From IMG/VR virus record IMGVR_UViG_3300021959_000352, positions 1 to 25,342 of that record: a DNA stretch of 25,342 bases; one strand, written 5' to 3'. The notes under the pieces were generated by a model. The model was not told the origin of the DNA, did not search any database, and was given only the letters and a program-made list of their open reading frames with translations. A program made the translations under genes and the position numbers. Positions within the stretch are counted from its first letter, which is position 1. The number at the start of each line of letters is the position of its first letter. This DNA is from a virus. Positions 9,685 to 25,342 of this stretch are shown here, one piece after another.

Positions 9685-12600
9685 TTATCCCTCTAATGCT
9701 AGAATATAAGGTGTTAATACTGCGAACAAAGATCTGTCGAACGTTGTTCCTGTGATTGTTCCCGACTCGCGGTTGATGGTTAAATCACCACCAATCCTAA
9801 AGTCACCCAGTTCGTCCGTCGCGGTAAAGTAAACCAAACCAAAATTGGGTTGTGCCGCCCCTGCTGAATCGAATATTACTTCCTGATCTTTCTTAGGAAT
9901 ACCGCCGTTTTGTGGCACTGCCGCAAACATATTAGTACCGGATCCCACAAACTCAAAAGTATGTGAAGAGGCACTAATCAAAGATCTTTGATGGAAATCA
10001 ACGGTTTGACCTTGTACTAATGGTTTATTTAGTCCAGGAGCAACAGTGATGTTGTATGATCCGGTTTCATTTAGGATAGAATAGTAATTAAATACCGTTC
10101 CCCCGTTTTCTGCTGGAGTCGCACCAATATCTTTAGTTCTGTTAGGAGCACCTACTGCAATATAATCTCCCTTAGATCCAAGTGCAATACTGGCAGAGAA
10201 ATTATCCTTTGAAGCATCCCCTTCTGAAACTGCTTGAATAGTAGATGGTTGAAGTTTAGTCACCGTTGCCCAGTTAGAAGCTGCACGTTCAACAACCCAT
10301 GCTGCGTTACGATCCCCGTTCTTTTCTCCGGCAATTGCAAGCAAACCATCGGCGCTAATTGTCACCTCATCACCTAATCTCTGAGAATCATTAGGTGTTG
10401 GACCGTTGTCAGCATTAGAAGTAGAAACCCCTTGTTTATCACCGTGAGTAATTACTTCTTGCGTTCCCCAAGTACCTTCATTAAAGAAGAAAAGTTCGAC
10501 TGCTCCCGCCGCACTAGTAGAAATCTCTTCATTGGTTGTAGTGGCATTTGGAACCGCAGTTCCATTTGTAAAGGTTATGGTGTTTGTCGTCAATGAAGCA
10601 ATCGTTTTATTACCTGCCCCGCTCCATGCCGGACTCTTCACCGTAATACCAGCACTAAAATACTTGGTAAAATCGACATCAGGGTCAGTTGCAGTAACAT
10701 GAGGTGCACTTGAAGAAGTCGTAAGCGAAGCAATAGATTGTTTTGCCGCATTTAATGAACCGGCAGCAGAATCGGTAAACGGATTAATTATATAACCGAA
10801 CGGGGCATTTCCGTCACCATAAACAAAGTAATCAGCGCCGGAAGAAAGTTCCAACACAGGTGCTCGCTGATTGTTTTCGGAAAGGTTCATTGCCGGTACA
10901 ATTGTCTGAACTCGACCATATGTATTAAAAATGTTTCTTGCATAATAGTATGCAGTATTTGCTTGTCCTGCCCAAGCGACAATCATGTCCGAACCGTCTG
11001 TTGTATTAAGAGAAACCGCTGGCGCAGATACATTGCTAATGACTGGACTTGTAATTATTTGCATCAAAGTCCAATAATCCCCTGATGAGGAAGTAAGCGA
11101 TGCTTCTATACCTTTAGTGCCACCGGAACCATCTAATGCTTCTGTTCCTTTCTGGTAAACAAAAACCTGACCACGAGTATCGCTTGCCGAAGTTGCCCCG
11201 CTTGCCACTGCAAGCCAGTTACCGTCTTCAGACATAGATAGATATCTTGTTTCTAGAGCAAGTACAACATTAGTTGATGCAACAAAAGGTCGTTGCAAAA
11301 TTATATCGAATGCCCAAGAAGAACCGGTTCGTTTATAAACGTAAACGCTACCTTGATTTTCTCCCAACCCACCACCGTTCTGATCGAAAGGTGCTCCAAC
11401 TGCCAGAAGACTTCCATCAAGGTTACATGCAACCGAAGAACCAAACCTACGCCCGTCACCGGCATTATTATGCAGAGGGTTCTCGGTCGTTCCGGTAGGT
11501 TTAACTGTTGCCTGAGTAGTCCAAGATGTTCCGGACCTTGTAAAGACTTCGACTTCTCCGGTTGCTGCGCCTGTTCCTTTTGCCCCGACAAATAAATAAT
11601 TATCGTCTCTTGACATTTTTGAAACACTACCGAACTCCTCGTTAACCACAGGAGAGGGGTTTACTAGAAGACCTTCGTTGCTATTTCCGCTGGTTCCCCA
11701 ATCTTGAGTAATCTCATCAGATACGTTTAGAACAGTGTAGTAATAATTATCATTGCTAAATTTGATCGCATCGTTGTAATTTGGTTTCTTAAACGCACCT
11801 ATTTCTAAAGAATAGTTTGCAGGATCTTGGTTTGTGATTCCGTTTACTCGAATCACATCATCGTTCTGATTATATGTTGCGTGAAGAGTTCCATCGTATA
11901 TTGACGGAGAACCACCTGTTGATACTAAACCACGATCACCAAAAGAAGAGTTCGAGTTTGTTATAGAACACTGTGCCCCTGTTTCTGCCAAAATAGACGT
12001 TGAGGTAGAAATCGTGAAACAAGATACTAACTGAGCATAGGCGCGTTCTTTAAGATATACTCCAATACCGTCTGCATTAAACTGGGTGAATGCATCAAGC
12101 ACCATTGACCGTAGACCAGATACTTTGGATCCATCGATCTTCATACCAATACCTGATGTTGTCAACGAAGTACAGTTCTGTACATAAGGTGATTGAGTAA
12201 TGAACGGTCCAGTATTAACATCGTTTCTTGGATCAAATGCCACACAGGCTGCACCGTTTTGATGATCTCGGAAAGTGATTTCTTTCACATAACAACCATT
12301 ATCTACCCAGAAGATATCGCTATCGACGTTGCGTGGGCGAATCGTAGTTGCCCTTAGTGCGTCACCGATGATAGAAGTCTTGGGTGGAAGTTTGATTGGG
12401 TTGTTAACTGTGTAGTCACCAGACTTTAAGAAGATGGTAGTATCTGTGCCTTGGTTCTGCGCTGTCTCAGATGACTGTCGAATAATAGTTTGTCGTTCAG
12501 ATGTTCCTTGCTCAAACTTAGTCCATGCGGTATAGATTAATGGTGTTGTCGTAGAAACCCCTATACTAACAAGGTTTGGAAACACTAGTGAATCGTAACC

Positions 12601-15600
12601 TACTGCAAGACCAGTCGGATAGTTGTATTGATAAATTGCTGCTCCACTAAAGAAATCACCTAGTTGGAAAGTTCCTATACTAGATTGCTCAACAGCATGA
12701 ATAATAATATCTAAGAGGTTTTGGATCTTAGTAATGTTACCTGAATCTGTTCCTGCCGTATAACCCGCAATAATAGATTTTAACTGTTCGTATGCTGCAA
12801 TCGTTGCAGTCAGTTCACTTTGACCAAGTCGATCAGCATAACCATTACCAAAGATAGAGAAGTATGCTCGCATCGCAATAGAGGTTGCGCTGTTACCACC
12901 GTACTTGAGATCATAGGTCAACGCATCCAGAATGTATCCCACGTCTCTGCGACAAGTTGCCTGATCGTAAGAGTATGTTGGGAAAACGCTATTGGCATAA
13001 AATACTACTTGCTCTTGTAACGTAGATCTGATAGCATGAAAAGTACTGCTCTCGCCAGTGAAAGTAGGCACAACAACCGGAATTGCTGATCCATCTGCGG
13101 CATTGATTGCGTCTCTAATCCTTTCAATTAATGCCACAACCCGAGCTTCTTCCGTAGAAGTCGTGACGTAATTATTAATAATAGTTTTTAACTGCTCGTA
13201 TGCAGCAAGTGAGGCAGTAATTTCACCGGCACCTAATTGATTAGTCCAGATGTCTGCGAGACCATCTAAACTTTCGTATGCAGTTGTGGTGTTCTCGATG
13301 TTAAGATCTTTACCAACCCAGTATGAACGAGCATTGGTATCAGTAGCAAAAGAACCGTCGAAAAGAATATCGTGAGTCACGGCATCTACAATGTATCCAA
13401 CGTCTCTTTGACACTTGTCTTGATCGTATTCTAACGAATCAAAATTGTTTTGAATCCAAGTGATCAACTGACCCTGAATGGTTCTTCGATTAACGATCAG
13501 AGCGTTTGCTGCATTTCTCTTATCGGCGCTCTCACTTCCAGTTCCGGTAAAGTCAATAGAGGTTCCGTCTTCTTTTCCGTATGCGGTGGACTCTTCAAGG
13601 AGTTCAGTGATCTGTTTAATACGTGCCGTAACGAAAGTCTGACTTGTTGCGTTAATACCAGATGCGTTGATCTGGTCTCGCAAGTAATTAATTGAATCGA
13701 TTGTGTATTGTAATTGATCGCTCTGAACTTTTTGTGCATTACCTCTTTGGTATGCGAGTCCAGCAGTGATGCTATTATAGTCTGTATTGTTCTGTAAGTC
13801 AAGAGCAATCGCATCAATTATAAGACCCGTGTCTCGCTCACACTTGTGCTGATCGAAACTGCCTACAATGTTTTGATCGTTCACATAGTCGATGACATCG
13901 TTCTGAATGATCAATCTGTTTGCAACTATAGCATCAAAATCTGTTGTTGTCAATCCCGCAGTGCTAACTTCTATTTCAGCAGGAACACTATCTATGTTAC
14001 CGGCAGTGATCGCATCTGTGGTTAATGCGATTAACTCGTCTACTCGTGCGTCTTCTGTGACATCCGCAAGTGCTTTAATACGAGTTGCGAGATCTCCATA
14101 GGCGGCGACTGTGGGTGCAGTTTCTCCTGAACCTAACTGGGCAGTTGTTCCTACAAAATAGGCAAGAGCAGATGAACGTGAGGCAGTGTTACCACCGTAA
14201 TACAAATCCGCAATCAAAGCATCGATCAAGAAACCCGTGTCTCTTTCACATGCGACAGAATCATAACCAAGACCTGGATAGTTTGCAGTAATATAGGAAG
14301 TGGTGTCTGTTATTAAGGTTGCCTTGGCAGTTCCAATCGCACTAATTTGCGCTGTTCTACCCGCAACATTTGCATAAGTTCCTGCCAGAGGCAAAGTGGT
14401 CACAGGTTGAGGCACAGTTACAGTACCATCAAGAACATCGATCACACGTTCGAACAAGGTGTCTACCGTTGCATCAAGTGCGCCTACTAATGTTTTGACC
14501 TTTGACTTGGCAAAATTAACAGCATCGATAGTTGCTTGTTTCTGATCACTCAGCACATAAGCAGTATTCGCTCGTAGATATGAGTTACCAGCGTAAACAG
14601 TCCAGTGATCGGTTCCAATTAAAAGATCACGTGCAACGGCATCAAGGATTAATCCAACGTCTCTTGCACACTTACCGGCATTATATCCACCAAGTTTAGT
14701 GGACCAATTCAGATCAACATAGTCAATCGTGGCAGCCTGAGCACCTACGATTCCGGCAACGATAGCATCGTATTCGACAGTAGTCAATCCAGTAGTAACG
14801 ATATTTACTTCTGCGGAAAGACCTGTGGTATTACCTGCCGTGATAACACCGGTGATTTCATCCACAAGTCCACCAAGAACTGTTTGTTCTGGAGCAGTCG
14901 TAACCACTGCGTTGATCCGTGTTTTAAGATCATTGTATGCCGCAACAGTTGCAGTGCCTTCTCCGAAACCTAATTGAGATACAGTACCTGAGAAATAGGC
15001 AAGAGCATTTGTGCGAGTCGCAGTGTTACCACCATATTTGACATCGTGGGACAAACCGTCTACGATATAACCAACATCTCTTTCGCATTTTGCTTGATCG
15101 TAACCAAGACCTGGATAGTTGGCATTGATGTAAACCGTGGTATCAGAAATTAATGTTGCACGATTTGCTTGAAGGTTCGTGGTTGCCGCAATTCGATCTG
15201 CCGTCTGGTATGTTGCCCCTGACGTAGTCACATAGTTGATTGATGGGTAAACCGTTTGCGTTGCGTTAATGACATCGGTAACATTCTTGAAAAGGTTTTC
15301 GATATCAGTATCGGAAGTAACACCAGCAAGAGCAATAATGTAATCTCTCGCAAAGTTGATACCCGCAATAGTTGCTTCGTTCTGATCGCTCAATACATAA
15401 GCAGAGGAAGACCTATTGTATGCCCAACCAGCAGTAATCGTATTGTAGTCAGTGCCTAATAATAGATCACGTGCAACAGCATTTACAATTAGACCGACAT
15501 CCCGAGAACAAGTTGTCGCATCGTATGACCCTGTGAGGAAATCGTTTGCGGGGTTGTTCAGGTAATCTAGAACCGCATCCTGAATTGCTTCTTTGTTATT

Positions 15601-16251
15601 CTGAATAGCATTAGCAGCTGCATTCGCGTCAGTCTGTGCTTGGACAGGTGGATCAGGAAACTCTAATGCAGAGGCAGTGCCGCCCACAAGAATCTCGATG
15701 ATCTCATCGAACGCCGCAGAGACACGTAGTTTAGAAGTCGCGTCAGTTTTTACTGCGGGAACAGAAACCATACCGAGACGTTCTTCATTGATCGATCGTC
15801 TAGTCTGATAGAGTTGTTCTGCGGTCACTTTAATAGCATTACCGCGCTTATATGCTTGCCCAGCAGTTACCGCACCGTAGTTTGTACCAAGTGCCATGTC
15901 ATAACGAACACCATCCATAATAAGGTGGAGGTCTCGTTCACATGTAGTTTCGTCAAACTTGAAGTTTTCTTTTGCATATACTACTGCTACTGCCGAATCC
16001 AAAGAAGAGAAAGCATTCATCAAAGATTTGCCATCGTTTCCAGGAACGCCCGACTTAGAAACATAATAGACGTTATCTACATCTTCGGCACCAATTGAAT
16101 TGATACTGACTTCGCCGTTCTTGTCTTTCTTAATATAGGCTTTACCATCATGCGTATTAATCGCAATCTCACCGAAATCAATTTCGTTAAGAGTCGGTGC
16201 ACGTCCTGGTATGTCGCTGCGCGGAAATAATATTTTTTTTCTAGATGCCAT
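9685..16251 (-). CDS. giant multidomain virion protein (2188 aa): C-x-R-D repeats, beta-helix, FG-GAP-like segment
   Basis: Domains in order: residues 1-60, a fibre-type start (LFPRSDIPGRAPTLNEIDFG, then EIAINTHDGKAYI); ~60-95, 'VYYVSKSG...NDGKSLMNAFSSLDSA', the lead of right-handed beta-helix proteins; ~100-1130, eight repeats whose C-x-R-D motifs begin at residues 104, 248, 389, 528, 668, 804, 947 and 1100; ~1265-1480, a pectate-lyase-like beta-helix (TIFLKSGDYTVNNPIKLPP, TSIIGDALRATTIRP, then short turns); ~1545-2040, five 'DGxxLAVGAPxxxxxGxVYVYxRxGxxW' units resembling FG-GAP_2/integrin-propeller blades; then a ~140-residue C-terminal part. It is most likely a long spike or fibre that binds a polysaccharide or surface; enzymatic activity is not demonstrated. 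The ATG at 16251 has a weak AGAG about 8 bases upstream. Confidence 0.82.
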   Translation of the reverse strand: MASRKKILFPRSDIPGRAPTLNEIDFGEIAINTHDGKAYIKKDKNGEVSINSIGAEDVDNVYYVSKSGVPGNDGKSLMNAFSSLDSAVAVVYAKENFKFDETTCERDLHLIMDGVRYDMALGTNYGAVTAGQAYKRGNAIKVTAEQLYQTRRSINEERLGMVSVPAVKTDATSKLRVSAAFDEIIEILVGGTASALEFPDPPVQAQTDANAAANAIQNNKEAIQDAVLDYLNNPANDFLTGSYDATTCSRDVGLIVNAVARDLLLGTDYNTITAGWAYNRSSSAYVLSDQNEATIAGINFARDYIIALAGVTSDTDIENLFKNVTDVINATQTVYPSINYVTTSGATYQTADRIAATTNLQANRATLISDTTVYINANYPGLGYDQAKCERDVGYIVDGLSHDVKYGGNTATRTNALAYFSGTVSQLGFGEGTATVAAYNDLKTRINAVVTTAPEQTVLGGLVDEITGVITAGNTTGLSAEVNIVTTGLTTVEYDAIVAGIVGAQAATIDYVDLNWSTKLGGYNAGKCARDVGLILDAVARDLLIGTDHWTVYAGNSYLRANTAYVLSDQKQATIDAVNFAKSKVKTLVGALDATVDTLFERVIDVLDGTVTVPQPVTTLPLAGTYANVAGRTAQISAIGTAKATLITDTTSYITANYPGLGYDSVACERDTGFLIDALIADLYYGGNTASRSSALAYFVGTTAQLGSGETAPTVAAYGDLATRIKALADVTEDARVDELIALTTDAITAGNIDSVPAEIEVSTAGLTTTDFDAIVANRLIIQNDVIDYVNDQNIVGSFDQHKCERDTGLIIDAIALDLQNNTDYNSITAGLAYQRGNAQKVQSDQLQYTIDSINYLRDQINASGINATSQTFVTARIKQITELLEESTAYGKEDGTSIDFTGTGSESADKRNAANALIVNRRTIQGQLITWIQNNFDSLEYDQDKCQRDVGYIVDAVTHDILFDGSFATDTNARSYWVGKDLNIENTTTAYESLDGLADIWTNQLGAGEITASLAAYEQLKTIINNYVTTSTEEARVVALIERIRDAINAADGSAIPVVVPTFTGESSTFHAIRSTLQEQVVFYANSVFPTYSYDQATCRRDVGYILDALTYDLKYGGNSATSIAMRAYFSIFGNGYADRLGQSELTATIAAYEQLKSIIAGYTAGTDSGNITKIQNLLDIIIHAVEQSSIGTFQLGDFFSGAAIYQYNYPTGLAVGYDSLVFPNLVSIGVSTTTPLIYTAWTKFEQGTSERQTIIRQSSETAQNQGTDTTIFLKSGDYTVNNPIKLPPKTSIIGDALRATTIRPRNVDSDIFWVDNGCYVKEITFRDHQNGAACVAFDPRNDVNTGPFITQSPYVQNCTSLTTSGIGMKIDGSKVSGLRSMVLDAFTQFNADGIGVYLKERAYAQLVSCFTISTSTSILAETGAQCSITNSNSSFGDRGLVSTGGSPSIYDGTLHATYNQNDDVIRVNGITNQDPANYSLEIGAFKKPNYNDAIKFSNDNYYYTVLNVSDEITQDWGTSGNSNEGLLVNPSPVVNEEFGSVSKMSRDDNYLFVGAKGTGAATGEVEVFTRSGTSWTTQATVKPTGTTENPLHNNAGDGRRFGSSVACNLDGSLLAVGAPFDQNGGGLGENQGSVYVYKRTGSSWAFDIILQRPFVASTNVVLALETRYLSMSEDGNWLAVASGATSASDTRGQVFVYQKGTEALDGSGGTKGIEASLTSSSGDYWTLMQIITSPVISNVSAPAVSLNTTDGSDMIVAWAGQANTAYYYARNIFNTYGRVQTIVPAMNLSENNQRAPVLELSSGADYFVYGDGNAPFGYIINPFTDSAAGSLNAAKQSIASLTTSSSAPHVTATDPDVDFTKYFSAGITVKSPAWSGAGNKTIASLTTNTITFTNGTAVPNATTTNEEISTSAAGAVELFFFNEGTWGTQEVITHGDKQGVSTSNADNGPTPNDSQRLGDEVTISADGLLAIAGEKNGDRNAAWVVERAASNWATVTKLQPSTIQAVSEGDASKDNFSASIALGSKGDYIAVGAPNRTKDIGATPAENGGTVFNYYSILNETGSYNITVAPGLNKPLVQGQTVDFHQRSLISASSHTFEFVGSGTNMFAAVPQNGGIPKKDQEVIFDSAGAAQPNFGLVYFTATDELGDFRIGGDLTINRESGTITGTTFDRSLFAVLTPYILALEG
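12900..15945 (-). repeat. eight ~140-residue C-x-R-D protein repeats inside the 2188-aa gene
   Basis: The conserved core is C-x-R-D-(V/T)-G-(Y/L/F)-(I/L)-(V/I/L)-D-A-(x)5-D-L. Two subtypes occur: one continues 'YGGNTATRxxALAYFxGT', the other 'LGTDYNxITAGxAYxRxxAYVLSDQxxATI'. Cys codons lie at about 15942, 15510, 15087, 14670, 14250, 13842, 13413 and 12954, a spacing of 137-153 codons. The two subtypes largely alternate, so the real duplicated unit may be a pair of about 280 residues. Confidence 0.85.
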
Positions 16252-17250: not shown

Positions 17251-17477
17251 TAGTAGATACCTCCATCAACTATTTGTCTTTCAAGATCTCGTTGGGCAAC
17301 CCATAAACCTCGATCTTCATTATATACTAAAACACTACCATGTTCTCTCTGAGAAGCATCGACACCGTCTAGTAAATTGATATCTCCCTTAGCTTCATTG
17401 ACTGATCGTATTGGAGTACCGACTATAATCTTGTCAATGACAGTTTTGTTATCTACTATTTTTACTTTATAGACCAT
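17250..17477 (-). CDS. small fibre-associated protein (75 aa)
   Basis: A 75-residue protein containing 'INLLDGVDASQREHGSVLVY' followed by NEDRGLWVA. The 'L-D-x-V ... G-S-V-L-V-Y-(D/N)-x-x-x-G-x-W-x-A' pattern is a common short element of phage tail-fibre and whisker proteins, where it usually occurs as one unit within a longer chain; here it stands alone. No Cys and no membrane segment are present. It overlaps its neighbours by one base on each side (TAATG junctions), so it should be translationally coupled with the 118-residue and 323-residue proteins. Function is inferred only from composition and position. Confidence 0.7.
   Translation of the reverse strand: MVYKVKIVDNKTVIDKIIVGTPIRSVNEAKGDINLLDGVDASQREHGSVLVYNEDRGLWVAQRDLERQIVDGGIY
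17260..17264 (-). promoter_or_regulatory. strong ribosome binding site GGAGG for the 323-aa gene
   Basis: GGAGG on the minus strand lies nine bases before the ATG at 17250, inside the last codons of the 75-codon gene. It supports the chosen start despite the one-base overlap of the two reading frames. Confidence 0.75.
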
Positions 17478-17833
17478 TATTTAGTCACCGAAGGAGTGAC
17501 GTTTAATAGACCTTCAAGGACTCTTTCTTTGATAGTAAAACCATCACTGTCAACAAAGGAAATTTCTACATCATAGACATAACGTTTTTTAGTATTTAAT
17601 AAATCGGTTTGAGTATTGGTAAGAGATAGGTTCACAATTCCGTCACTATCAGGGGAGTTGATAATGGAAGTGAATGATATTTTATCAGAATCCGTTGCTG
17701 CAAAATTCGGGGCAAGCTTTGCCGCAACAGAATAACCGGTTAGGTTCTTTTTTGTTCCGTCTTTGTTGATGAGACGTAGTTCAACCGCGATGTCTGAACC
17801 TTGATCTATAGTAAGATCTTCGTAATGTGCCAT
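17477..17833 (-). CDS. Ig-like / BppU-N-like baseplate or fibre accessory protein (118 aa)
   Basis: Sequence features are 'YEDLTIDQGSDIAVELRLIN', 'DGTKKNLTGYSVAAKLAPNF', 'SDGIVNLSLTNTQTDLL' and 'RYVYDVEISFVDSDG', ending 'RVLEGLLNVTPSVT'. The layout (a disordered-free D-x-G-S-D/T start, 'KDLTGY.V.A.I', then 'G.V.L.L...T..L..G.Y.YD') is that of the N-terminal beta-sandwich domain of phage baseplate upper proteins (BppU_N) and similar modules in T4-like marine phages. It stands alone here rather than at the head of a receptor-binding protein. It is the first gene after a TATAAATA sequence and couples by TAATG to the 75-codon gene. The family call is by pattern only. Confidence 0.7.
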   Translation of the reverse strand: MAHYEDLTIDQGSDIAVELRLINKDGTKKNLTGYSVAAKLAPNFAATDSDKISFTSIINSPDSDGIVNLSLTNTQTDLLNTKKRYVYDVEISFVDSDGFTIKERVLEGLLNVTPSVTK

Positions 17834-17875: not shown

Positions 17876-18553
17876 TCAATACTCAGCAGAGATATATTCT
17901 GCACTTAGATCCTGAACTCCGGCACCCATTTCATCTCGATTTAGAACAAAAGCAATGCTTATTCTATCACAATCTGTCGAACAAGCATGATAACATAGGT
18001 TCTCTGCCGATTCGAAGTATCCTCCAAAGTATCCTGCCTTGCACTGCCAGCCAGGCCGGTCTTCTATTTTACATATCTTTCCGGTCTTTCCGTCTCTGTA
18101 TAGAAAATGTCCATTCCCAGTCTCGGACCAAGTAAAGATAAAGTTATAAGAACTGGCATTAGCATTATTGTGCCATGAAATATATCCTCCCGGAGGATAA
18201 TAACAGAAAAGAGCATTCTTCTTTAAACACAACTCAGTCTGCAATCCGAAAGTAATGTCTGCCACTTTGTCCAATAATGCTGCTGCTTTATTAGGATCTG
18301 TATCGTTTTTAATGGCACTAGTCTCTATAGAATAGGAATATCCCCCCACTTGTTCTGGAAATCCTAAATGGTCTCTCCCTTTGGCAATGATTTCACCCAG
18401 ATATTCCTCTCCAACCCACTTGGATCTTTCCCGTTTATAGGTGTTGATATTTTTAATATGAACTAAATTTGTTATCTCTTCTCCTCTCATGTCGAGAGAT
18501 TTATTCAGATACTCAAGAACTATAGGGTTACGTATAGGGACATCTTTAAACAC
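17876..18553 (-). CDS. 2OG-Fe(II) oxygenase-like protein with altered metal triad
   Basis: The C-terminal half resembles the double-stranded beta-helix of 2-oxoglutarate/Fe(II) oxygenases (prolyl-hydroxylase type): 'YYPPGGYISWHNNANASSYN', 'FIFTWSETGNGHFLYRD', 'GWQCKAGYFGGYF', then 'CYHACSTDCDRISIAFVL'. Counting from the TTG at 18556, H129 and H190 fit the two His ligands and R198 the 2OG-binding Arg, but the HxD acid is Asn131 (H-N-N). It may be inactive, bind metal differently, or belong to a variant phage clade. Two starts are possible, TTG at 18556 and GTG at 18553; AGGAG at 18565-18561 is 4 or 7 bases away, so I choose GTG. It overlaps the glycosyltransferase by 8 bases. The C-terminus has a tandem SAEY-I-SAEY. 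Substrate unknown; virion fibre or host surface is inferred from position. Confidence 0.72.
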   Translation of the reverse strand: MFKDVPIRNPIVLEYLNKSLDMRGEEITNLVHIKNINTYKRERSKWVGEEYLGEIIAKGRDHLGFPEQVGGYSYSIETSAIKNDTDPNKAAALLDKVADITFGLQTELCLKKNALFCYYPPGGYISWHNNANASSYNFIFTWSETGNGHFLYRDGKTGKICKIEDRPGWQCKAGYFGGYFESAENLCYHACSTDCDRISIAFVLNRDEMGAGVQDLSAEYISAEY

Positions 18554-19262
18554 CAAGGGACTCCTGTACTCCTGATTTTAATGCAGAATAATGTTGAATT
18601 ACAACAGGAAGGGTGTTATGTCCTGCACGATAACTAGAATAATAATTCCACCTAGAATCGTCATCGAATATTCCTATTTTAAGATCTTTATATTTAGGGG
18701 TTTTATTTACCAACCACCACAAACTAAATTGATCCCACCTTGATAAATTTTTAGGATATAAATTGATGTCCTCTGGCCACCACCTTCCAGCATATTGTTC
18801 AACGGTTAAATCATACCAATCGTTCATGAATTCTCGGACAATTGGTTTGGTCATATCATATAAACAAACTGCCCCGCACAAATGTAATTTTCCACCTGGA
18901 AAATAATGTTGGGCAAAGCAATATGCTCGATCATCCGGTAAAGCAGTGAAGACTATATCATTATCATCAAACAAATCGAATACTGTGCTGATATCATTGT
19001 GAACAACTTCGCAGTCGGCATCGATATAAAAGGTATGATCATATGGAGTTAATGCCATACCCTTGAGTTTTGCCCGAGTATGATTGTCAATGAATTCTAC
19101 TTGGTCTGCTACCCATTCTTGACCATCAAGAAATCTTTCCTCGGTGTACAAAGTTACTTGTGCATTCTTATCAAATTCTTTAATTGATTCGATTAGATTA
19201 ATGGCACTGAGGTAGAAAAATACTTTAGTGCTTGCAATAACAACATAACCTTTAGTTGGCAA
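18546..19262 (-). CDS. GT-A fold glycosyltransferase, family 8-like
   Basis: A 238-residue protein with the fold signature of nucleotide-sugar glycosyltransferases: N-terminal 'KGYVVIASTKVFFYLSAINL' (first beta-strand and sugar-nucleotide loop), 'VTLYTEE', then 'YDHTFYIDADCEVV' with a D-x-D metal/nucleotide motif at residues 81-83, 'HLCGAVCLYDM', 'RWDQFSLWWLV' (D177-Q178) and a C-terminal 'VIQHYSALKSG' (H224). These match the GT8/GT-A type. The start is a TTG at 19262: no in-frame ATG lies nearby, and GGAGG nine bases upstream fits it. It overlaps the 191-residue gene by 11 bases and the oxygenase-like gene by 8, so the three are coupled. Likely acceptors are a phage fibre or a host glycan; the sequence does not decide. 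Confidence 0.82.
   Translation of the reverse strand: MPTKGYVVIASTKVFFYLSAINLIESIKEFDKNAQVTLYTEERFLDGQEWVADQVEFIDNHTRAKLKGMALTPYDHTFYIDADCEVVHNDISTVFDLFDDNDIVFTALPDDRAYCFAQHYFPGGKLHLCGAVCLYDMTKPIVREFMNDWYDLTVEQYAGRWWPEDINLYPKNLSRWDQFSLWWLVNKTPKYKDLKIGIFDDDSRWNYYSSYRAGHNTLPVVIQHYSALKSGVQESLGV
18561..18565 (-). promoter_or_regulatory. ribosome binding site AGGAG that decides the oxygenase-like start
   Basis: AGGAG on the minus strand lies inside the end of the glycosyltransferase gene. It is four bases before the TTG at 18556 and seven before the GTG at 18553, which favours the GTG. Confidence 0.55.
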
Positions 19263-19827
19263 GTTTCATTTCCTCCATCAATAATATTGTCGTATAAGCA
19301 TTTAATTCATATATGGTTTGACTTCTTCTAATTTTCCCTCGAAGGATTTTATTCTTAGAGTTTTTAATTGCGTCGATATTAAACACTTCTAATTTGGCAG
19401 TAAATAATTCTTCTAATTTTTTAGATCTTCCTTTTTGTTGTTCTCGAATTTTATCGATTTCTTTTTTGTTTGTCTTGGAGGCATGTCGTTTCCGACGTTC
19501 TTCTGTGAATTTTGTAATATTATCCTTTCCAATATCTTTCAATACACGATACCATAAAGGATTAGTTTTTAAACCTAAATTATCAGAAGGGCTCTTAGTT
19601 ACCGAGTGGTCTTCATGTACTTCAGAATGAACCAAATAATCGTTTAAGAATGCATGTACTTCATATGTGTCGTCATGAATAACCTTACCAGTGTTGATAT
19701 TGGTAATTTTACATTTGCAAACTATAATTTCTGGGGATTCGTCGTGGAAAAAGGCAGATTTTCCAAATAGGAAGGCATGTTCAGACATAAATTTGTTCAT
19801 ATCGATCTCATTACGAATATCTGGCAT
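19252..19827 (-). CDS. uncharacterised protein (191 aa)
   Basis: I do not recognise a family. Residues ~14-75 look globular and beta-rich ('HAFLFGKSAFFHDESPEIIV', 'CKCKITNINTGKVIHDDTYE', 'VHAFLNDYLVHSEVHEDHSV'). Residues ~100-170 are strongly charged and probably helical ('ERRKRHASKTNKKEIDKIRE', 'QQKGRSKKLEEL'), suggesting a coiled or nucleic-acid-contacting segment. The end (YELNAYTTILLMEEMKLAN) is a hydrophobic helix. It begins at an ATG with only a weak AGAG about ten bases upstream, 68 bases after the giant repeat gene, and overlaps the glycosyltransferase by 11 bases. It heads the three-gene modification cluster, so a role as acceptor, adaptor or regulator there is possible but not shown. 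Confidence 0.7.
   Translation of the reverse strand: MPDIRNEIDMNKFMSEHAFLFGKSAFFHDESPEIIVCKCKITNINTGKVIHDDTYEVHAFLNDYLVHSEVHEDHSVTKSPSDNLGLKTNPLWYRVLKDIGKDNITKFTEERRKRHASKTNKKEIDKIREQQKGRSKKLEELFTAKLEVFNIDAIKNSKNKILRGKIRRSQTIYELNAYTTILLMEEMKLAN
19272..19276 (-). promoter_or_regulatory. ribosome binding site GGAGG supporting a TTG start
   Basis: GGAGG on the minus strand lies nine bases before the TTG at 19262. The ATG visible between them (19268) is in the frame of the preceding 191-codon gene and ends after five codons, so it is not the glycosyltransferase start. Confidence 0.7.
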
Positions 19828-19895: not shown

Positions 19896-22800
19896 TTATC
19901 CTCCCGGAATAGTGTTGACAAACAAACTGATCACTTCATTTACGTCATTAGTACCACTTCCGACTTTACGAATTTCTACTCTCACTTCATCAGTTGTGGT
20001 TGTTGCAATCGTTGCGTCAGTAGAGGTACCCTCAACAGTCCGTACTGTATCTAAAGAGACGTAGGCTCCGGCAGTTGTTCCTGATACAGATCCGCTTACC
20101 TGTGTAAGACGAATCTCATAATCTTCTCCTACAGTTGGAAGTTTATCTGCTTCAGGTAACCAAGATCCTAAAGTTACAGTGGGAGATTGCAGGTAGAAAT
20201 TGTTATCTGCTCCAATAATCGAAACATTACCGTCTGGTTGGAATTGAATACCGGCAGAAACATTCACAGTAACGCGGCCGCGATCACCCTCATTTACTCC
20301 AGATTTAATGACCGAAGTAAACAACATTTGAGCAGTGCCAGTAACCGCAGCAACACTCGTATCATTTATATAGACTGCTTGCGAAGTCGCCAGTCTGCGT
20401 CCACCCGTAGCAGAATCCCAAAGTTCAACCCAGAAATATTCTTCGCCTTCGGTGAGAGTATCAGCAGTTACTGTTTTTGAATACCCAAGCGCTGAATCGC
20501 TGGGACTAAATGATCCTAGTCGCCTTGTCGTTTCTCCAGCGGTACCAGTAAGGTCTGCGTCTACTGCTGTTCCTAATTCACCGTTGACAGTATTGTATGA
20601 AAGATAAACATCAACCGCATCGAATGGACCGTAAACCGCAGGATTTCTCCTTGCAAAAGTTGTGAAACTAACTCCTTCATCAACACTATACCTTGGACCA
20701 GTATCAGTTAAACCAGAGAAGTCAATTTCCCATCCTTGATCATCATCAACCTTACAATACAGAGTGTAGGTTTCGATGATGGACAAGTTTCCGGTATCAA
20801 CAGAAAGGCCACCATCAAAAACACTCTCATAAGATTCTTCGGCATTCCGAGTGAAGTCCCCAGTATACGGTTCTTGATCAACAGTCTCAAATGTACCCGT
20901 ATAAGGTTCAAGTGCTTCCGTCTCGAAAGTACCCGTATAAGGTTCAAGTGCTTCCGTCTCGAAAGTACCAATATACGGTTCTAGTACGGTAGTCTCAAAA
21001 GTACCCGTATATGGTTCTTGATCAACAGTCTCAAAGGTACCAGTATACGGTTCTAGTACGGTAGTCTCGAAAGTACCCGTATAAGGTTCAAGTGCTTCCG
21101 TCTCGAAAGTACCAATATACGGTTCTAGTACGGTAGTCTCAAAAGTACCCGCATATGGTTCTTGAATTGTTGTATCAAAATCACCAGTATAGGGAAATTG
21201 CTCTACGGCAGTAGTCTCAAATGTACCCGTATAGGGAAATTGTTCAACTGCAAGACGGGTAAAGTCACCAGTGTAAGGTTGTTGTACTGTTACATCAAAG
21301 TCACCAGTATAGGGAAATTGCTCTACAGCAGTAGTCGTAAAGTTACCAGTATAAGGCTGTTGTACTGTCGTATCAAAATCACCAGTATATGGTTCTTGTA
21401 CTGCTGTCGTAAAGTTACCCGTATAAGGTTCGTCTTCTTGTACTGTCGTATCAAAATCACCAGTATATGGTTCTTGTACTGCTGTCGTAAAGTTACCGGT
21501 GTAAGGTTCGTCTTCTTGTACTGTTACATCAAAATCACCAGTGTAAGGTTGTTGTACGGTAGTCTCAAAGTTACCCGTATAAGGTTCTTGTATTGTTACA
21601 TCAAAATCACCAGTATATGGTTCTAGTACGGTAGTCTCAAAGTTACCAGTATATGGTTCGTCTTCTTGTACTGCTGTCGTAAAGTTACCAGTGTAAGGTT
21701 CTTGTACTGTGGTCGTAAAGTTACCGGTGTAAGGTTCGTCTTCTTGTACTGTCGTATCAAAATCACCAGTGTAAGGTTGTTGTACTGTGGTCGTAAAGTT
21801 ACCCGTATAAGGTTCTTGTACTGTTACATCAAAATCACCAGTGTAAGGTTGTTGTACAATACGCGTAAAGTCACCAGTATAAGGTTCGTCTTCTTGTACT
21901 GTGGTCGTAAAGTTACCTGTATATGGTTCTTGTACTGTGGCCGTAAAGTTACCCGTATAGGGAAATTGTTCTACCGCAGTAGTCGTAAAGTTACCAGTAT
22001 ATGGTTCTTGTACTGCTGTCGTAAAGTTACCGGTGTAAGGTTCGTTTTCTTGTACTGTTACATCAAAATCACCAGTGTAAGGTTGTTGTACTGTGGTCGT
22101 AAAGTTACCCGTATAGGGAAATTGTTCTACCGCAGTAGTCGTAAAGTTACCAGTGTAAGGTTGTTGTACTGCTGTCGTAAAGTTACCCGTATAAGGTTCT
22201 TGTACTGCTGTCGTAAAGTTACCAGTATAGGGAAATTGCTCTACCGCAGTAGTCGTAAAGTTACCAGTGTAAGGTTGTTGTACTGTTACATCAAAATCAC
22301 CGGTGTAAGGAAATTGTTCAACTGCAAGACGTGTAAAGTCACCCGTATAAGGTTCTTGTACTGTGGCCGTAAAGTTACCTGTATATGGTTCTTGTACTGT
22401 TACATCAAAATCACCAGTATAAGGTTGTTGTACTGCTGTCGTAAAGTTACCCGTATAAGGTTCTTGTATTGTGGTCGTAAAGTTACCCGTATAAGGTTCT
22501 TGTACTGCTGTCGTAAAGTTACCCGTATAAGGTTCTTGTACTGCTGTCGTAAAGTTACCAGTATAAGGTTCTTGGGCAAGACGTGTAAAATCACCAGTGT
22601 AAGGTTGTTGTACTGTTACATCAAAATCACCAGTATAAGGTTGTTGTACTGTTACATCAAAATCACCGGTGTAAGGTTCTTGTACTGCTGTCGCAAAGTT
22701 ACCAGTATATGGTTGTTGAGCAAGACGGGTAAAGTCACCAGTGTAAGGTTGTTGTACTGTTACATCAAAATCACCAGTATAAGGTTGTTGTACTGTTACA

Positions 22801-25342
22801 TCAAAATCACCAGTATAAGGTTGTTGTACTGTTACATCAAAATCACCGGTGTAAGGTTGTTGTACTGTTACATCAAAATCACCAGTGTAAGGTTGTTGTA
22901 CAATACGCGTAAAGTCACCAGTATAAGGTTCATCTTCTTGTACAATACGTGTAAAGTCACCAGTATAAGGTTGTTGTACAATACGCGTAAAGTCACCAGT
23001 GTAATCTTCATCTTCTTGAGCAAGACGGGTAAAGTCACCGGTGTAAGGTTGTTGAGCAAGACGGGTAAAGTCACCAGTATAATCTTCATCTTCTTGAGCA
23101 AGACGGGTGAAATCACCAGTATAAGGTTCTTCAGCAAGACGTGTAAAGTCACCAGTGTAATCTTCATCTTCTTGTACCTCACGTGTAAAGTCACCAGTAT
23201 AAGGTTGTTGAGCAAGACGTGTAAAGTCACCAGTGTAATCTTCATCTTCTTGTACCTCACGTGTAAAGTCACCAGTATAAGGTTGTTGAGCAAGACGGGT
23301 GAAATCACCAGTATAAGGTTCGTCTTCTTGTACAATACGTGTAAAGTCACCAGTATAAGGTTGTTCAGCAAGACGTGTAAAGTCACCAGTGTAAGGTTGT
23401 TGTATTGTTACATCAAAATCACCGGTGTAAGGTTGTTGTATTGTTACATCAAAATCACCGGTGTAAGGTTGTTGTACTGTCGTATCAAAATCACCGGTGT
23501 ATGACGGTGCCGATACTACTGGAAAATCTGAACGTTTATAACTAGAGTACTCGGCCCCACCTTGCAAACCTGACGCCGCCGCCCATAGACGTACCGCAAT
23601 TCTCGCGGTACCAGCAGATGTAAACGTTACATCAAAGACCCCGATTTTTGACTGGGACCCAGTGGGCAAACTCGCATCCGGAATGTATATTGTCGTTGTT
23701 CCGGTAGAAGTCGGTGCAGGATCGATATAAGGGTTGGACACATACCCAAAATAACCAACAACATCGGAGGGAGTGCTTGGAACAGTGGACGTTGCCCCAG
23801 TACTTGAAGAAGCCAACACTCTCGATATAGTTGCTCCAGCACTGCTCAATTCGATAACACCGAATTCGACTGTATCAATATCGATACTGGTGTTTATGTT
23901 AATAAAATTGAAATTGACTGTAACTCGAACCTTGTCTCCTACATTGACACTGGAAGGAATAGTGTCAACATCCGCGACCATTTTTGGAGTATTATCATTA
24001 CCAAAACTATCACCGACTGGGAATGGGAATACGGACGCACTATAATTGGCACGAACCTCAAGTTCATAAGTCTGTGCCGTAGGACCGTCTATTCTAGTAA
24101 AGTCACCAGTATAAGGTTGTTGAGCAAGACGGGTAAAGTCACCAGTGTAAGGTTGTTGAGCAAGACGTGTAAAGTCACCAGTGTAAGGTTGTTGTACTGT
24201 TACATCAAAGTCACCGGTGTAAGGTTGTTGTACTGTCGTATCAAAGTCACCGGTGTAAGGAAATTGTTCTACAGCTGTTACATCAAAGTCACCGGTGTAA
24301 GGTTGTAGTACTGTTACATCAAAGTCACCAGTGTAAGCAATTTGTTCTGTAACAGCAGTATCGAAGTCACCAGTATAAGGTTGTTGTATTGTTACATCAA
24401 AGTCACCAGTGTAAGCAATTTGTTCTGTAACAGCAGTATCAAAATCACCGGTGTAAGGTTCTTGTATTGTTACATCAAAGTCACCGGTGTAAGGAATTTG
24501 TTCTGTAACAGCAGTATCGAAGTCACCGGTGTAAGGTTGTTGAACAGCAGTATCAAAGTCACCGGTGTAAGGAATTTGTTCTGTAACAGCAGTATCAAAA
24601 TCACCAGTATAAGGTTGTTGTACTGTCGTATCAAAGTCACCGGTGTAAGGAAATTGTTCTACAGCTGTCGTATCAAAATCACCAGTATAAGGTTGTTGAG
24701 CAAGACGGGTAAAGTCACCAGTATAAGGTTGTTGTACAATACGTGTAAAGTCACCAGTATAAGGTTGTTGAGCAAGACGGGTAAAGTCACCAGTGTAAGG
24801 TTGTTGAGCAAGACGTGTAAAGTCACCAGTATAAGGTTGTTGTACTGTTACATCAAAATCACCAGTATAAGGTTGTTGTACTGCTGTCGTAAAGTTACCC
24901 GTATAAGGTTCTTGTACAATACGTGTAAAGTCACCAGTGTAAGGTTGTTGAGCAAGACGTGTAAAGTCACCAGTATAAGGTTGTTGTACTGTTACATCAA
25001 AATCACCAGTATAAGGTTGTTGTACTGTGGTCGTAAAGTTACCTGTATATGGTTCTTGTACTGTGGCCGTAAAGTTACCTGTATATGGTTCTTGTACTGT
25101 GGCCGTAAAGTTACCTGTATATGGTTCTTGTACTGTAGTCGTAAAGTTACCGGTGTAAGGTTGTTGAGCAAGACGGGTAAAGTCACCAGTATAAGGTTGT
25201 TGTACTGTTACATCAAAATCACCAGTATAAGGTTGTTGTACTGCTGTCGTAAAGTTACCCGTATAAGGTTCTTGTACAATACGTGTAAAGTCACCAGTAT
25301 AAGGTTGTTGAGCAAGACGTGTAAAGTCACCAGTGTAAGGTT
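19896..25342 (-). CDS. giant Y-T-G-(D/N)-F repeat virion protein, 5' end beyond the window
   Basis: One reading frame is open from the right edge to the TAA at 19898-19896, giving 1814 visible residues. The Met codon at 23981 is internal: the frame upstream is open and continues the same repeats, so the true start is off-window. Order from the edge: array A of 34 units (25342-24090); a ~196-residue globular, Ig-like segment (24089-23502; SVNVGDKVRVTVN); array B of 71 units (23501-20832); and a 311-residue C-terminal region with a Calx-beta-like part (LTEGEEYFWVELWDSA, VYINDTSV) and a second Ig-like part (GVNEGDRGRVTVN). Units are 12 or 14 residues. It is free of Cys in the arrays and rich in Thr, Tyr, Gln and Asp, consistent with an extended beta fibre or sheath. 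I infer a virion fibre from composition and operon position; its host target is unknown. Confidence 0.8.
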   Translation of the reverse strand, partial: PYTGDFTRLAQQPYTGDFTRIVQEPYTGNFTTAVQQPYTGDFDVTVQQPYTGDFTRLAQQPYTGNFTTTVQEPYTGNFTATVQEPYTGNFTATVQEPYTGNFTTTVQQPYTGDFDVTVQQPYTGDFTRLAQQPYTGDFTRIVQEPYTGNFTTAVQQPYTGDFDVTVQQPYTGDFTRLAQQPYTGDFTRLAQQPYTGDFTRIVQQPYTGDFTRLAQQPYTGDFDTTAVEQFPYTGDFDTTVQQPYTGDFDTAVTEQIPYTGDFDTAVQQPYTGDFDTAVTEQIPYTGDFDVTIQEPYTGDFDTAVTEQIAYTGDFDVTIQQPYTGDFDTAVTEQIAYTGDFDVTVLQPYTGDFDVTAVEQFPYTGDFDTTVQQPYTGDFDVTVQQPYTGDFTRLAQQPYTGDFTRLAQQPYTGDFTRIDGPTAQTYELEVRANYSASVFPFPVGDSFGNDNTPKMVADVDTIPSSVNVGDKVRVTVNFNFININTSIDIDTVEFGVIELSSAGATISRVLASSSTGATSTVPSTPSDVVGYFGYVSNPYIDPAPTSTGTTTIYIPDASLPTGSQSKIGVFDVTFTSAGTARIAVRLWAAASGLQGGAEYSSYKRSDFPVVSAPSYTGDFDTTVQQPYTGDFDVTIQQPYTGDFDVTIQQPYTGDFTRLAEQPYTGDFTRIVQEDEPYTGDFTRLAQQPYTGDFTREVQEDEDYTGDFTRLAQQPYTGDFTREVQEDEDYTGDFTRLAEEPYTGDFTRLAQEDEDYTGDFTRLAQQPYTGDFTRLAQEDEDYTGDFTRIVQQPYTGDFTRIVQEDEPYTGDFTRIVQQPYTGDFDVTVQQPYTGDFDVTVQQPYTGDFDVTVQQPYTGDFDVTVQQPYTGDFTRLAQQPYTGNFATAVQEPYTGDFDVTVQQPYTGDFDVTVQQPYTGDFTRLAQEPYTGNFTTAVQEPYTGNFTTAVQEPYTGNFTTTIQEPYTGNFTTAVQQPYTGDFDVTVQEPYTGNFTATVQEPYTGDFTRLAVEQFPYTGDFDVTVQQPYTGNFTTTAVEQFPYTGNFTTAVQEPYTGNFTTAVQQPYTGNFTTTAVEQFPYTGNFTTTVQQPYTGDFDVTVQENEPYTGNFTTAVQEPYTGNFTTTAVEQFPYTGNFTATVQEPYTGNFTTTVQEDEPYTGDFTRIVQQPYTGDFDVTVQEPYTGNFTTTVQQPYTGDFDTTVQEDEPYTGNFTTTVQEPYTGNFTTAVQEDEPYTGNFETTVLEPYTGDFDVTIQEPYTGNFETTVQQPYTGDFDVTVQEDEPYTGNFTTAVQEPYTGDFDTTVQEDEPYTGNFTTAVQEPYTGDFDTTVQQPYTGNFTTTAVEQFPYTGDFDVTVQQPYTGDFTRLAVEQFPYTGTFETTAVEQFPYTGDFDTTIQEPYAGTFETTVLEPYIGTFETEALEPYTGTFETTVLEPYTGTFETVDQEPYTGTFETTVLEPYIGTFETEALEPYTGTFETEALEPYTGTFETVDQEPYTGDFTRNAEESYESVFDGGLSVDTGNLSIIETYTLYCKVDDDQGWEIDFSGLTDTGPRYSVDEGVSFTTFARRNPAVYGPFDAVDVYLSYNTVNGELGTAVDADLTGTAGETTRRLGSFSPSDSALGYSKTVTADTLTEGEEYFWVELWDSATGGRRLATSQAVYINDTSVAAVTGTAQMLFTSVIKSGVNEGDRGRVTVNVSAGIQFQPDGNVSIIGADNNFYLQSPTVTLGSWLPEADKLPTVGEDYEIRLTQVSGSVSGTTAGAYVSLDTVRTVEGTSTDATIATTTTDEVRVEIRKVGSGTNDVNEVISLFVNTIPGG
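20832..23501 (-). repeat. array B: 71 tandem 36/42-bp units encoding P-Y-T-G-(D/N/T)-F
   Basis: The block is 2670 bases, exactly 890 codons: 52 units of 12 residues and 19 of 14. Common forms are YTGDFTRLAQQP, YTGDFDVTVQQP, YTGNFTTAVQEP and, near the C-terminal end, YTGTFETxxLEP. The 14-residue forms gain two residues at the end of the unit (QEDEDY or AVEQFP types). Subtypes cluster: TR(L/I) with acidic linkers first, NFTT forms in the middle, TFET forms last. The final unit (YTGDFTRNAEES) uses different codons (GGG, GAC, TTC, CGG) and grades into the C-terminal domain. Confidence 0.95.
24090..25342 (-). repeat. array A: 34 visible tandem units of the same family, continuing past the right edge
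   Basis: From the Tyr codon at 25337 to that at 24113 is 1224 bases, equal to 27 units of 12 residues and six of 14, followed by a last unit YTGDFTRIDGP. A 14-residue type ending AVTEQI(A/P) occurs only here, alternating with DVTI/DTAV units between about 24310 and 24600. The array has no interruption at the window's end, so more copies are expected outside. Confidence 0.95.
24801..25342 (-). repeat. 360-bp higher-order duplication inside array A
   Basis: Bases 24801-24980 and 25161-25342 align at a constant offset of 360 bases (ten 36-base units) with only a few substitutions. The run beginning at 24841 and 25201 is identical for over 80 bases. The same order of unit types (TRLAQQP, TRIVQEP, NFTTAVQQP, DVTVQQP, TRLAQQP) is therefore duplicated as a block. 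Confidence 0.85.

Follow-up and report, generated by a model that had tools for sequence, protein, structure and literature searches.

Organization of the locus

The window, by which we mean the whole stretch of DNA that was analysed, is a complete IMG/VR contig of 25342 bases, the end of which falls inside a tandem repeat array. The array belongs to a giant gene on the minus strand, for a tyrosine-rich protein, the frame of which (25340..19896) contains 105 Y-[TIA]-G-[DNT]-F units, 34 in array A and 71 in array B; with the frame open at the window edge, this count is a lower bound. The features of the gene and of the cassette that follows it are collected in Table 1. The window, Phage C48C1 and G002 share one gene order, namely array gene, small ORF, putative glycosyltransferase (GT), 2OG-oxygenase-fold (2OG-fold) ORF and fibre-assembly-like ORF, and the T4-like neck/tail genes gp13, gp14 and gp15 come after the cassette in the window and in G002. 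The giant gene lies in the tail structural module, downstream of baseplate genes (L011 and C48C1) and upstream of gp13/14/15 (window and G002).

Elsewhere on the minus strand, positions 129-2039 encode a tail sheath stabiliser like T4 gp15 that continues into Ig-like domains (Big_9) and DUF285 repeats (E 2.7e-34), an unusual C-terminal decoration for a tail completion protein, and positions 9685-16251 encode a protein of 2188 aa in which a motif of the type CERDVGYIVDALxxDLxYGGN recurs ahead of a fibre-like C-terminal part. The latter protein is partly related to a 778-aa protein of G002.

Table 1. Features of the giant gene and its cassette in the window, with the basis of each assignment
Feature	Position	Strand	Basis
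Giant repeat (putative fibre) gene, 3' part, 1814 codons	19896..25340	-	open at window edge; relatives
Array A, 34 units (lower bound)	24090..25337	-	motif count
QTYELEVR, directly after array A	24051..24074	-	tentative resemblance to the conserved ETYTLYVRV terminal strand
In-frame ATG inside the gene, improbable as start	23979..23981	-	no visible Shine-Dalgarno
Inner domain, about 196 aa, probably Ig-like	23502..24089	-	locus comparison
Array B, 71 units, each 12 or 14 residues long	20832..23501	-	motif count
C-terminal extra domain(s), 311 aa	19899..20831	-	present in L062, L064 (49%) and L065; phrog_11610 weak
ETYTLYCKV, counterpart of the relatives' ETYTLYVRVA end	20748..20774	-	conserved motif comparison
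Small 191-aa ORF, C-terminal half charged, cassette member, possible assembly helper	19252..19827	-	synteny
Putative GT-A-like glycosyltransferase, invariant D81xD83	18546..19262	-	80/80 loci
2OG-oxygenase-fold (DSBH) protein, invariant H129-x-N131...H190...R198	17876..18556	-	80/80 loci
'L-shaped tail fibre assembly'-like ORF	17477..17833	-	phrog_3304/phrog_1084

The repeat array is a coding sequence under selection

Successive units are spaced by 12 residues (78 times) or 14 residues (25 times), apart from a single 204-residue step across the inner domain; odd spacings never occur within the two arrays and frame slip is absent. From the first Tyr of array A at 25337 to its last at 24113, unit 1 to unit 34, the distance is 408 codons or 1224 bases, and array B comprises 890 codons, which bears out the claim of an earlier note on this DNA that at least 105 units follow one another with exact arithmetic and without frame slip. 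When the residues of the protein were shuffled, a mean of 0.09 units and a maximum of 2 were obtained, versus the 105 in the real protein. Two ORFs of 612 and 333 aa on the opposite strand were taken as shadows of the repeat.

The Tyr codons of the units are TAT (64) or TAC (41), the Phe codons TTT (96) or TTC (9) and the Gly codons GGT (104) or GGG (1), with no nonsynonymous change in these 315 codons, and the codon-position entropy sits mainly on the third bases at Y1, T2, F5 and P12. Such synonymous-only variation points to selection on the array at the protein level and not to a DNA-level repeat alone; the array is a real coding sequence under purifying selection.

The 12-residue unit consists of three tetrads, YTGD-FTRL-AQQP, of which the second and third vary, and the 14-residue units (QEDEP, AVEQFP and TEQIP types) carry two extra residues in the tail after F5, ahead of the next Tyr. 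The unit types occur in mixed order along the array; YTGTFETT units lie at the C-terminal end of array B and also open the arrays of relatives at their N-terminal start. The longest exact self-repeat in the array is 122 bp, short enough for normal read assembly, so that the count of 105 is plausible. Array length differs by 24 residues between L081 and L084, which are otherwise 99.9% identical, and by 60 plus 60 residues between the near-identical L066 and L067, in both cases in multiples of 12, and these whole-unit indels could be either natural gain and loss of units or assembly collapse.

The missing 5' part and the flanking domains

The ATG at 23981 opens a sub-ORF of 1361 aa, as the earlier note had described, and falls in the inner domain, after 34 units; a purine-rich Shine-Dalgarno sequence was looked for ahead of it and none was visible. 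A degenerate pattern search for two adjacent units retrieved three contigs (L008, L011 and L012). In these, a new ORF comes after a baseplate-region gene of 1834 codons; it starts MVAPLKILESGSLKEMVISEEDYLAYRAG and has an N-terminal domain of about 430 residues and then an array of the window's unit types that runs off the contig end. Exact stretches of up to 89 bp are common to the arrays of the window and of these contigs. Because the relatives with the N-terminal domain start far upstream and because no Shine-Dalgarno sequence is visible, Met 23981 is not the likely start, and its description in the earlier note as a misleading internal Met held up. The prediction that gene finders would be misled by it applies to those that forbid open ends but not to those that allow them. 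The protein had further been said to exceed 1814 residues and to be very long, both of which agree with the sizes of its relatives, 3150-3513 aa for the complete ones and at least 3758 aa for the array ORF of L129.

The inner domain is weakly similar to the Ig-like part of the relatives' N-terminal domain and has no relative at that place among 80 loci. Most complete relative proteins end in ETYTLYVRVA or close variants, and the window, as L064, continues for nearly 300 residues beyond the corresponding strand after array B. Direct searches of IMG/VR with the C-terminal and inner domains gave no matches. The C-terminal domain of L064 is 49% identical to that of the window and its array is quite different (YIDNVNYQDNINYIGD); from this comparison, the array type seems to have been exchanged while the flanks stayed.

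Relatives across phages

A tblastn search with the window ORF returned one substantial annotated relative, a 3347-aa gene in the same place in Phage C48C1. Scanning with a GT alignment found 218 relatives; among the best 80, which were fetched, the 2OG-fold ORF was present in all 80 loci and the fibre-assembly-like ORF in 77, and wherever the upstream sequence was long enough, the locus has a large ORF in which Tyr/Phe are mostly 4, 8, 12 or 16 residues apart (L064 and L065 also show distances of 6 and 10). The earlier note had defined the array by a Y-T-G-(D/N)-F unit: the array is real, but the invariant of the wider family is a four-residue aromatic cadence, which is organised here in 12-residue super-units. 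Odd spacings are found in other families, which led us to reject a universal beta-parity rule of even-only spacing.

A second retrieval relied on the N-terminal domain alone, thus avoiding the bias of GT-based retrieval, and gave 191 relatives, of which 80 were fetched. Both the GT and the 2OG-fold ORF were found in 26 of the 27 loci having more than 1.5 kb after the stop, the 26 including near-identical contigs and representing about 19 distinct ones, and the sole locus without both has just 1.8 kb beyond the stop. Tandem pairs of array genes occur in some relatives (L033, L035, L079, L089 and L100), several with a TYTLYVR-type terminus. Among bacterial genomes, a Sphingobacteriales MAG has the only close cassette, situated on a phage-like contig of 142 kb. 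In nine large carriers no psbA was found, which leaves a cyanobacterial host possible but unsupported. The window is best explained as DNA of a T4-like phage, so far uncultured, that is related to C48C1.

The putative enzymes

The linked GT and 2OG-fold genes were absent from the account in the earlier note. The DxD-type motif of the GT, D81-A-D83, is invariant in 29 sequences, 13 of which gave weak matches to Pfam GT2 (best E 0.0012), the window protein itself scoring 14 bits, below the gathering cut-off of 23.3; by these sequence features, the product is a putative GT-A-like glycosyltransferase. Another GT-like ORF (phrog_2835 glucosyltransferase, E 0.001) occurs in the related contigs, flanked by a baseplate wedge gene on one side and by the 1834-aa gene that precedes the fibre gene on the other (L011, 5445-6125).

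The model of the 2OG-fold protein is a double-stranded beta-helix (pLDDT 93), for which Foldseek returned ALKBH7, prolyl-4-hydroxylase, AlkB and vCPH (5c5t) as the best matches, with E values to 2.5e-5, a probability of up to 1.00 and TM scores of just 0.3-0.5. All 33 sequences have H129-x-N131...H190 in place of the canonical HxD/E...H iron triad, and R198 is invariant at the place, about 8-10 residues after the distal H190, where an Arg or Lys is expected. Given HxN instead of HxD, we call the protein 2OG-oxygenase-like and not a proven member of that class, with a putative iron chemistry. Prolyl hydroxylation was considered as a modification shared by the family and is unlikely, since most tetrads of C48C1 are without Pro.

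Structure prediction and searches for known repeat families

AlphaFold2 was given 14 window units and 61 register-matched rows, and the best model is regular: residues 5-9 of every 12 form one strand and residues 1-2 a second, very short one. Its mean pLDDT is 71 and its pTM 0.65; the five models reached 71, 61, 38, 34 and 33, two above 60 and three below 40, and self-shifted repeat alignments of this kind can favour regular solenoids. The array may well be a beta-solenoid with coils of 12 or 14 residues. The usual rise of a beta-solenoid is 4.8 Angstrom per coil. With one coil per unit, the 105 units would measure about 50 nm and a 3500-aa relative more than 120 nm, the scale of T4 long tail fibres.

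The best array model had no significant match in the PDB (best E 1.1e-3, probability 0.04), and neither the array nor the N-terminal domain matched a fibre in Pfam, PHROGs, NCBIfam or the PDB, so that the giant protein, for all its fibre-like proposed role, is assigned to no known family of fibres. Two Pfam families, HAMP_2 and DUF1416, pass the cut-off only by summing sub-threshold repeat hits, no single stretch passing, and were dismissed as an artefact of repetition. Sequence searches of the PDB with the fibre, N-terminal domain, GT and 2OG-fold proteins gave no usable relative, a match to 6czj (E 0.005) being taken as a chance effect of the repeats. Literature searches for the motif, for C48C1, for OQ984149 and for repeat fibres with hydroxylases yielded nothing relevant.

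A probable giant tail fibre, possibly modified

Taken together, we consider it fairly likely that the locus encodes the giant fibre shaft of a T4-like phage, a solenoid rod modified by its own enzyme cassette. Of the very long fibre proposed in the earlier note, the coding array and the length stand; a fibre is the most likely reading, given that the gene lies between baseplate wedge and neck genes and adjoins a fibre-assembly-like ORF. We infer its location in the virion, the beta-solenoid and the action of the enzymes on the repeats, the last from gene linkage alone.

The window ORF would then be the 3' half of the shaft. The N-terminal domain, missing in the window and seen in relatives, would anchor the shaft to the tail, and hundreds of tetrads, placing an aromatic residue at every fourth position, would build a long, regular beta-rod, most likely with one coil per 12/14-residue unit and with the two-residue insertions in the turn. 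The short TYTLYVRV strand would cap the rod, and the extra C-terminal domains of this phage may bind the host. Recombination would alter the array by whole units, thereby tuning its reach, and the GT and the 2OG-oxygenase-fold protein would modify the repeats ahead of assembly, by hydroxylation and/or glycosylation. That the same two putative modifying enzymes adjoin such arrays across related phages suggests a chemically decorated fibre, previously undescribed. It is quite possible, though we offer this more tentatively, that a large and almost wholly uncultured group of T4-like phages makes single-chain giant fibres of hundreds of aromatic tetrads, and that a dedicated pair of phage enzymes with an unusual HxN iron site regularly adds hydroxyl groups and sugars to them, which would make these fibres a phage counterpart of modified collagen.

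Alternatively, the protein could be a fibre or whisker while the two enzymes act elsewhere, on a host surface glycan, a nucleotide or the phage DNA, and are co-transcribed with it in a late structural operon. Marine T4-like phages do have enzyme genes within their structural clusters, and the phrog_2835 GT-like ORF near the baseplate genes of L011 would fit this possibility, which we nevertheless find unlikely in view of the tight linkage over many contigs with very different arrays, seen in both directions of retrieval. It is also rather improbable that the array forms a flexible, elastic or adhesive Tyr-rich strand, as in a whisker or silk, with no regular solenoid and serving particle adhesion and not receptor recognition. 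The low-complexity Tyr/Thr/Gly/Asn/Gln composition, the tolerance of very different tetrads and the disagreement among the AlphaFold2 models are what one would expect of such a strand, but the strict 12/14 spacing, the invariant Y1-G3-F5 in the window and the restriction of two-residue insertions to one part of the unit are not. A secreted or cell-surface protein of infected cells, such as a factor for exclusion or aggregation, is very improbable, considering the structural-module position near baseplate/neck genes in the window, G002, C48C1, L011 and the MAG contig L100, and the fibre-assembly-like ORF in the cassette. Finally, 42 of the 80 IMG/VR contigs with the N-terminal domain (L104-L183) end within their own array, which makes the gene a systematic assembly breakpoint and might hint at an artefact (chimera, collapse or expansion), but this is barely credible with exact repeats of at most 122 bp, 105 units without a frame break, synonymous-only variation at Y/G/F and the same architecture in the independent complete genome of C48C1.

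The interest of the locus is twofold. First, receptor-binding fibres set host range, and very few phage fibres with post-translational modification are known. A cassette that joins a giant repeat shaft to its own putative GT and 2OG-fold protein, present in some 200 environmental contigs and one annotated phage record, offers a direct test of phage fibre modification. Second, the array explains recurrent genome breaks in assemblies, with the consequence that database entries regularly contain only part of the fibre gene.

Comparison with known systems

A phage fibre is a known kind of object; the novelty lies in a giant chain of aromatic tetrads that is constantly accompanied by a GT and a 2OG-fold protein. 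The only close annotated relative is CDS0201 of Phage C48C1 (OQ984149, Kyanoviridae; WJE88074, 'hypothetical protein', 3347 aa), which resembles the window in its place and its aromatic tetrad array, ends in ETYTLYVRVA, has an N-terminal domain of the same family as the other relatives and is followed by the small ORF, the GT (57%), the 2OG-fold ORF (36%) and the L-shaped-fibre-assembly-like ORF. Unlike the window, it has FxGN/YxRx tetrads that are not grouped into the 12-residue super-unit and mostly lack Pro, and several interspersed globular domains, and it lacks the C-terminal extra domain.

The functional amyloid FapC and beta-helical antifreeze protein (9u4u, 3p4g) bear a weak, non-significant likeness to the predicted coil and no sequence relation to the array. 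The long tail fibres of T4 (gp34-gp37) and the L-shaped fibre of T5 (pb1) are similar in probable role and length scale, in having their gene in the structural module and in the assembly-helper-like ORF close by, with no detectable sequence relation to the window protein. The T4 fibres consist of several proteins, in contrast to the single giant chain of the window, and to our knowledge a GT and 2OG-fold enzyme cassette is not a feature of T4/T5 fibres. Virus collagen-like fibres with their own hydroxylases and glycosyltransferases are known from mimivirus (L230) and chlorella virus (vCPH). The window differs from viral collagen in having no Gly-X-Y repeat, in an array predicted to be beta and not a triple helix, and in HxN instead of HxD; what it has in common with the mimivirus and chlorella virus systems is a repeat protein, here a probable fibre, whose gene is accompanied by those for a putative sugar transferase and a 2OG-fold protein resembling hydroxylases.
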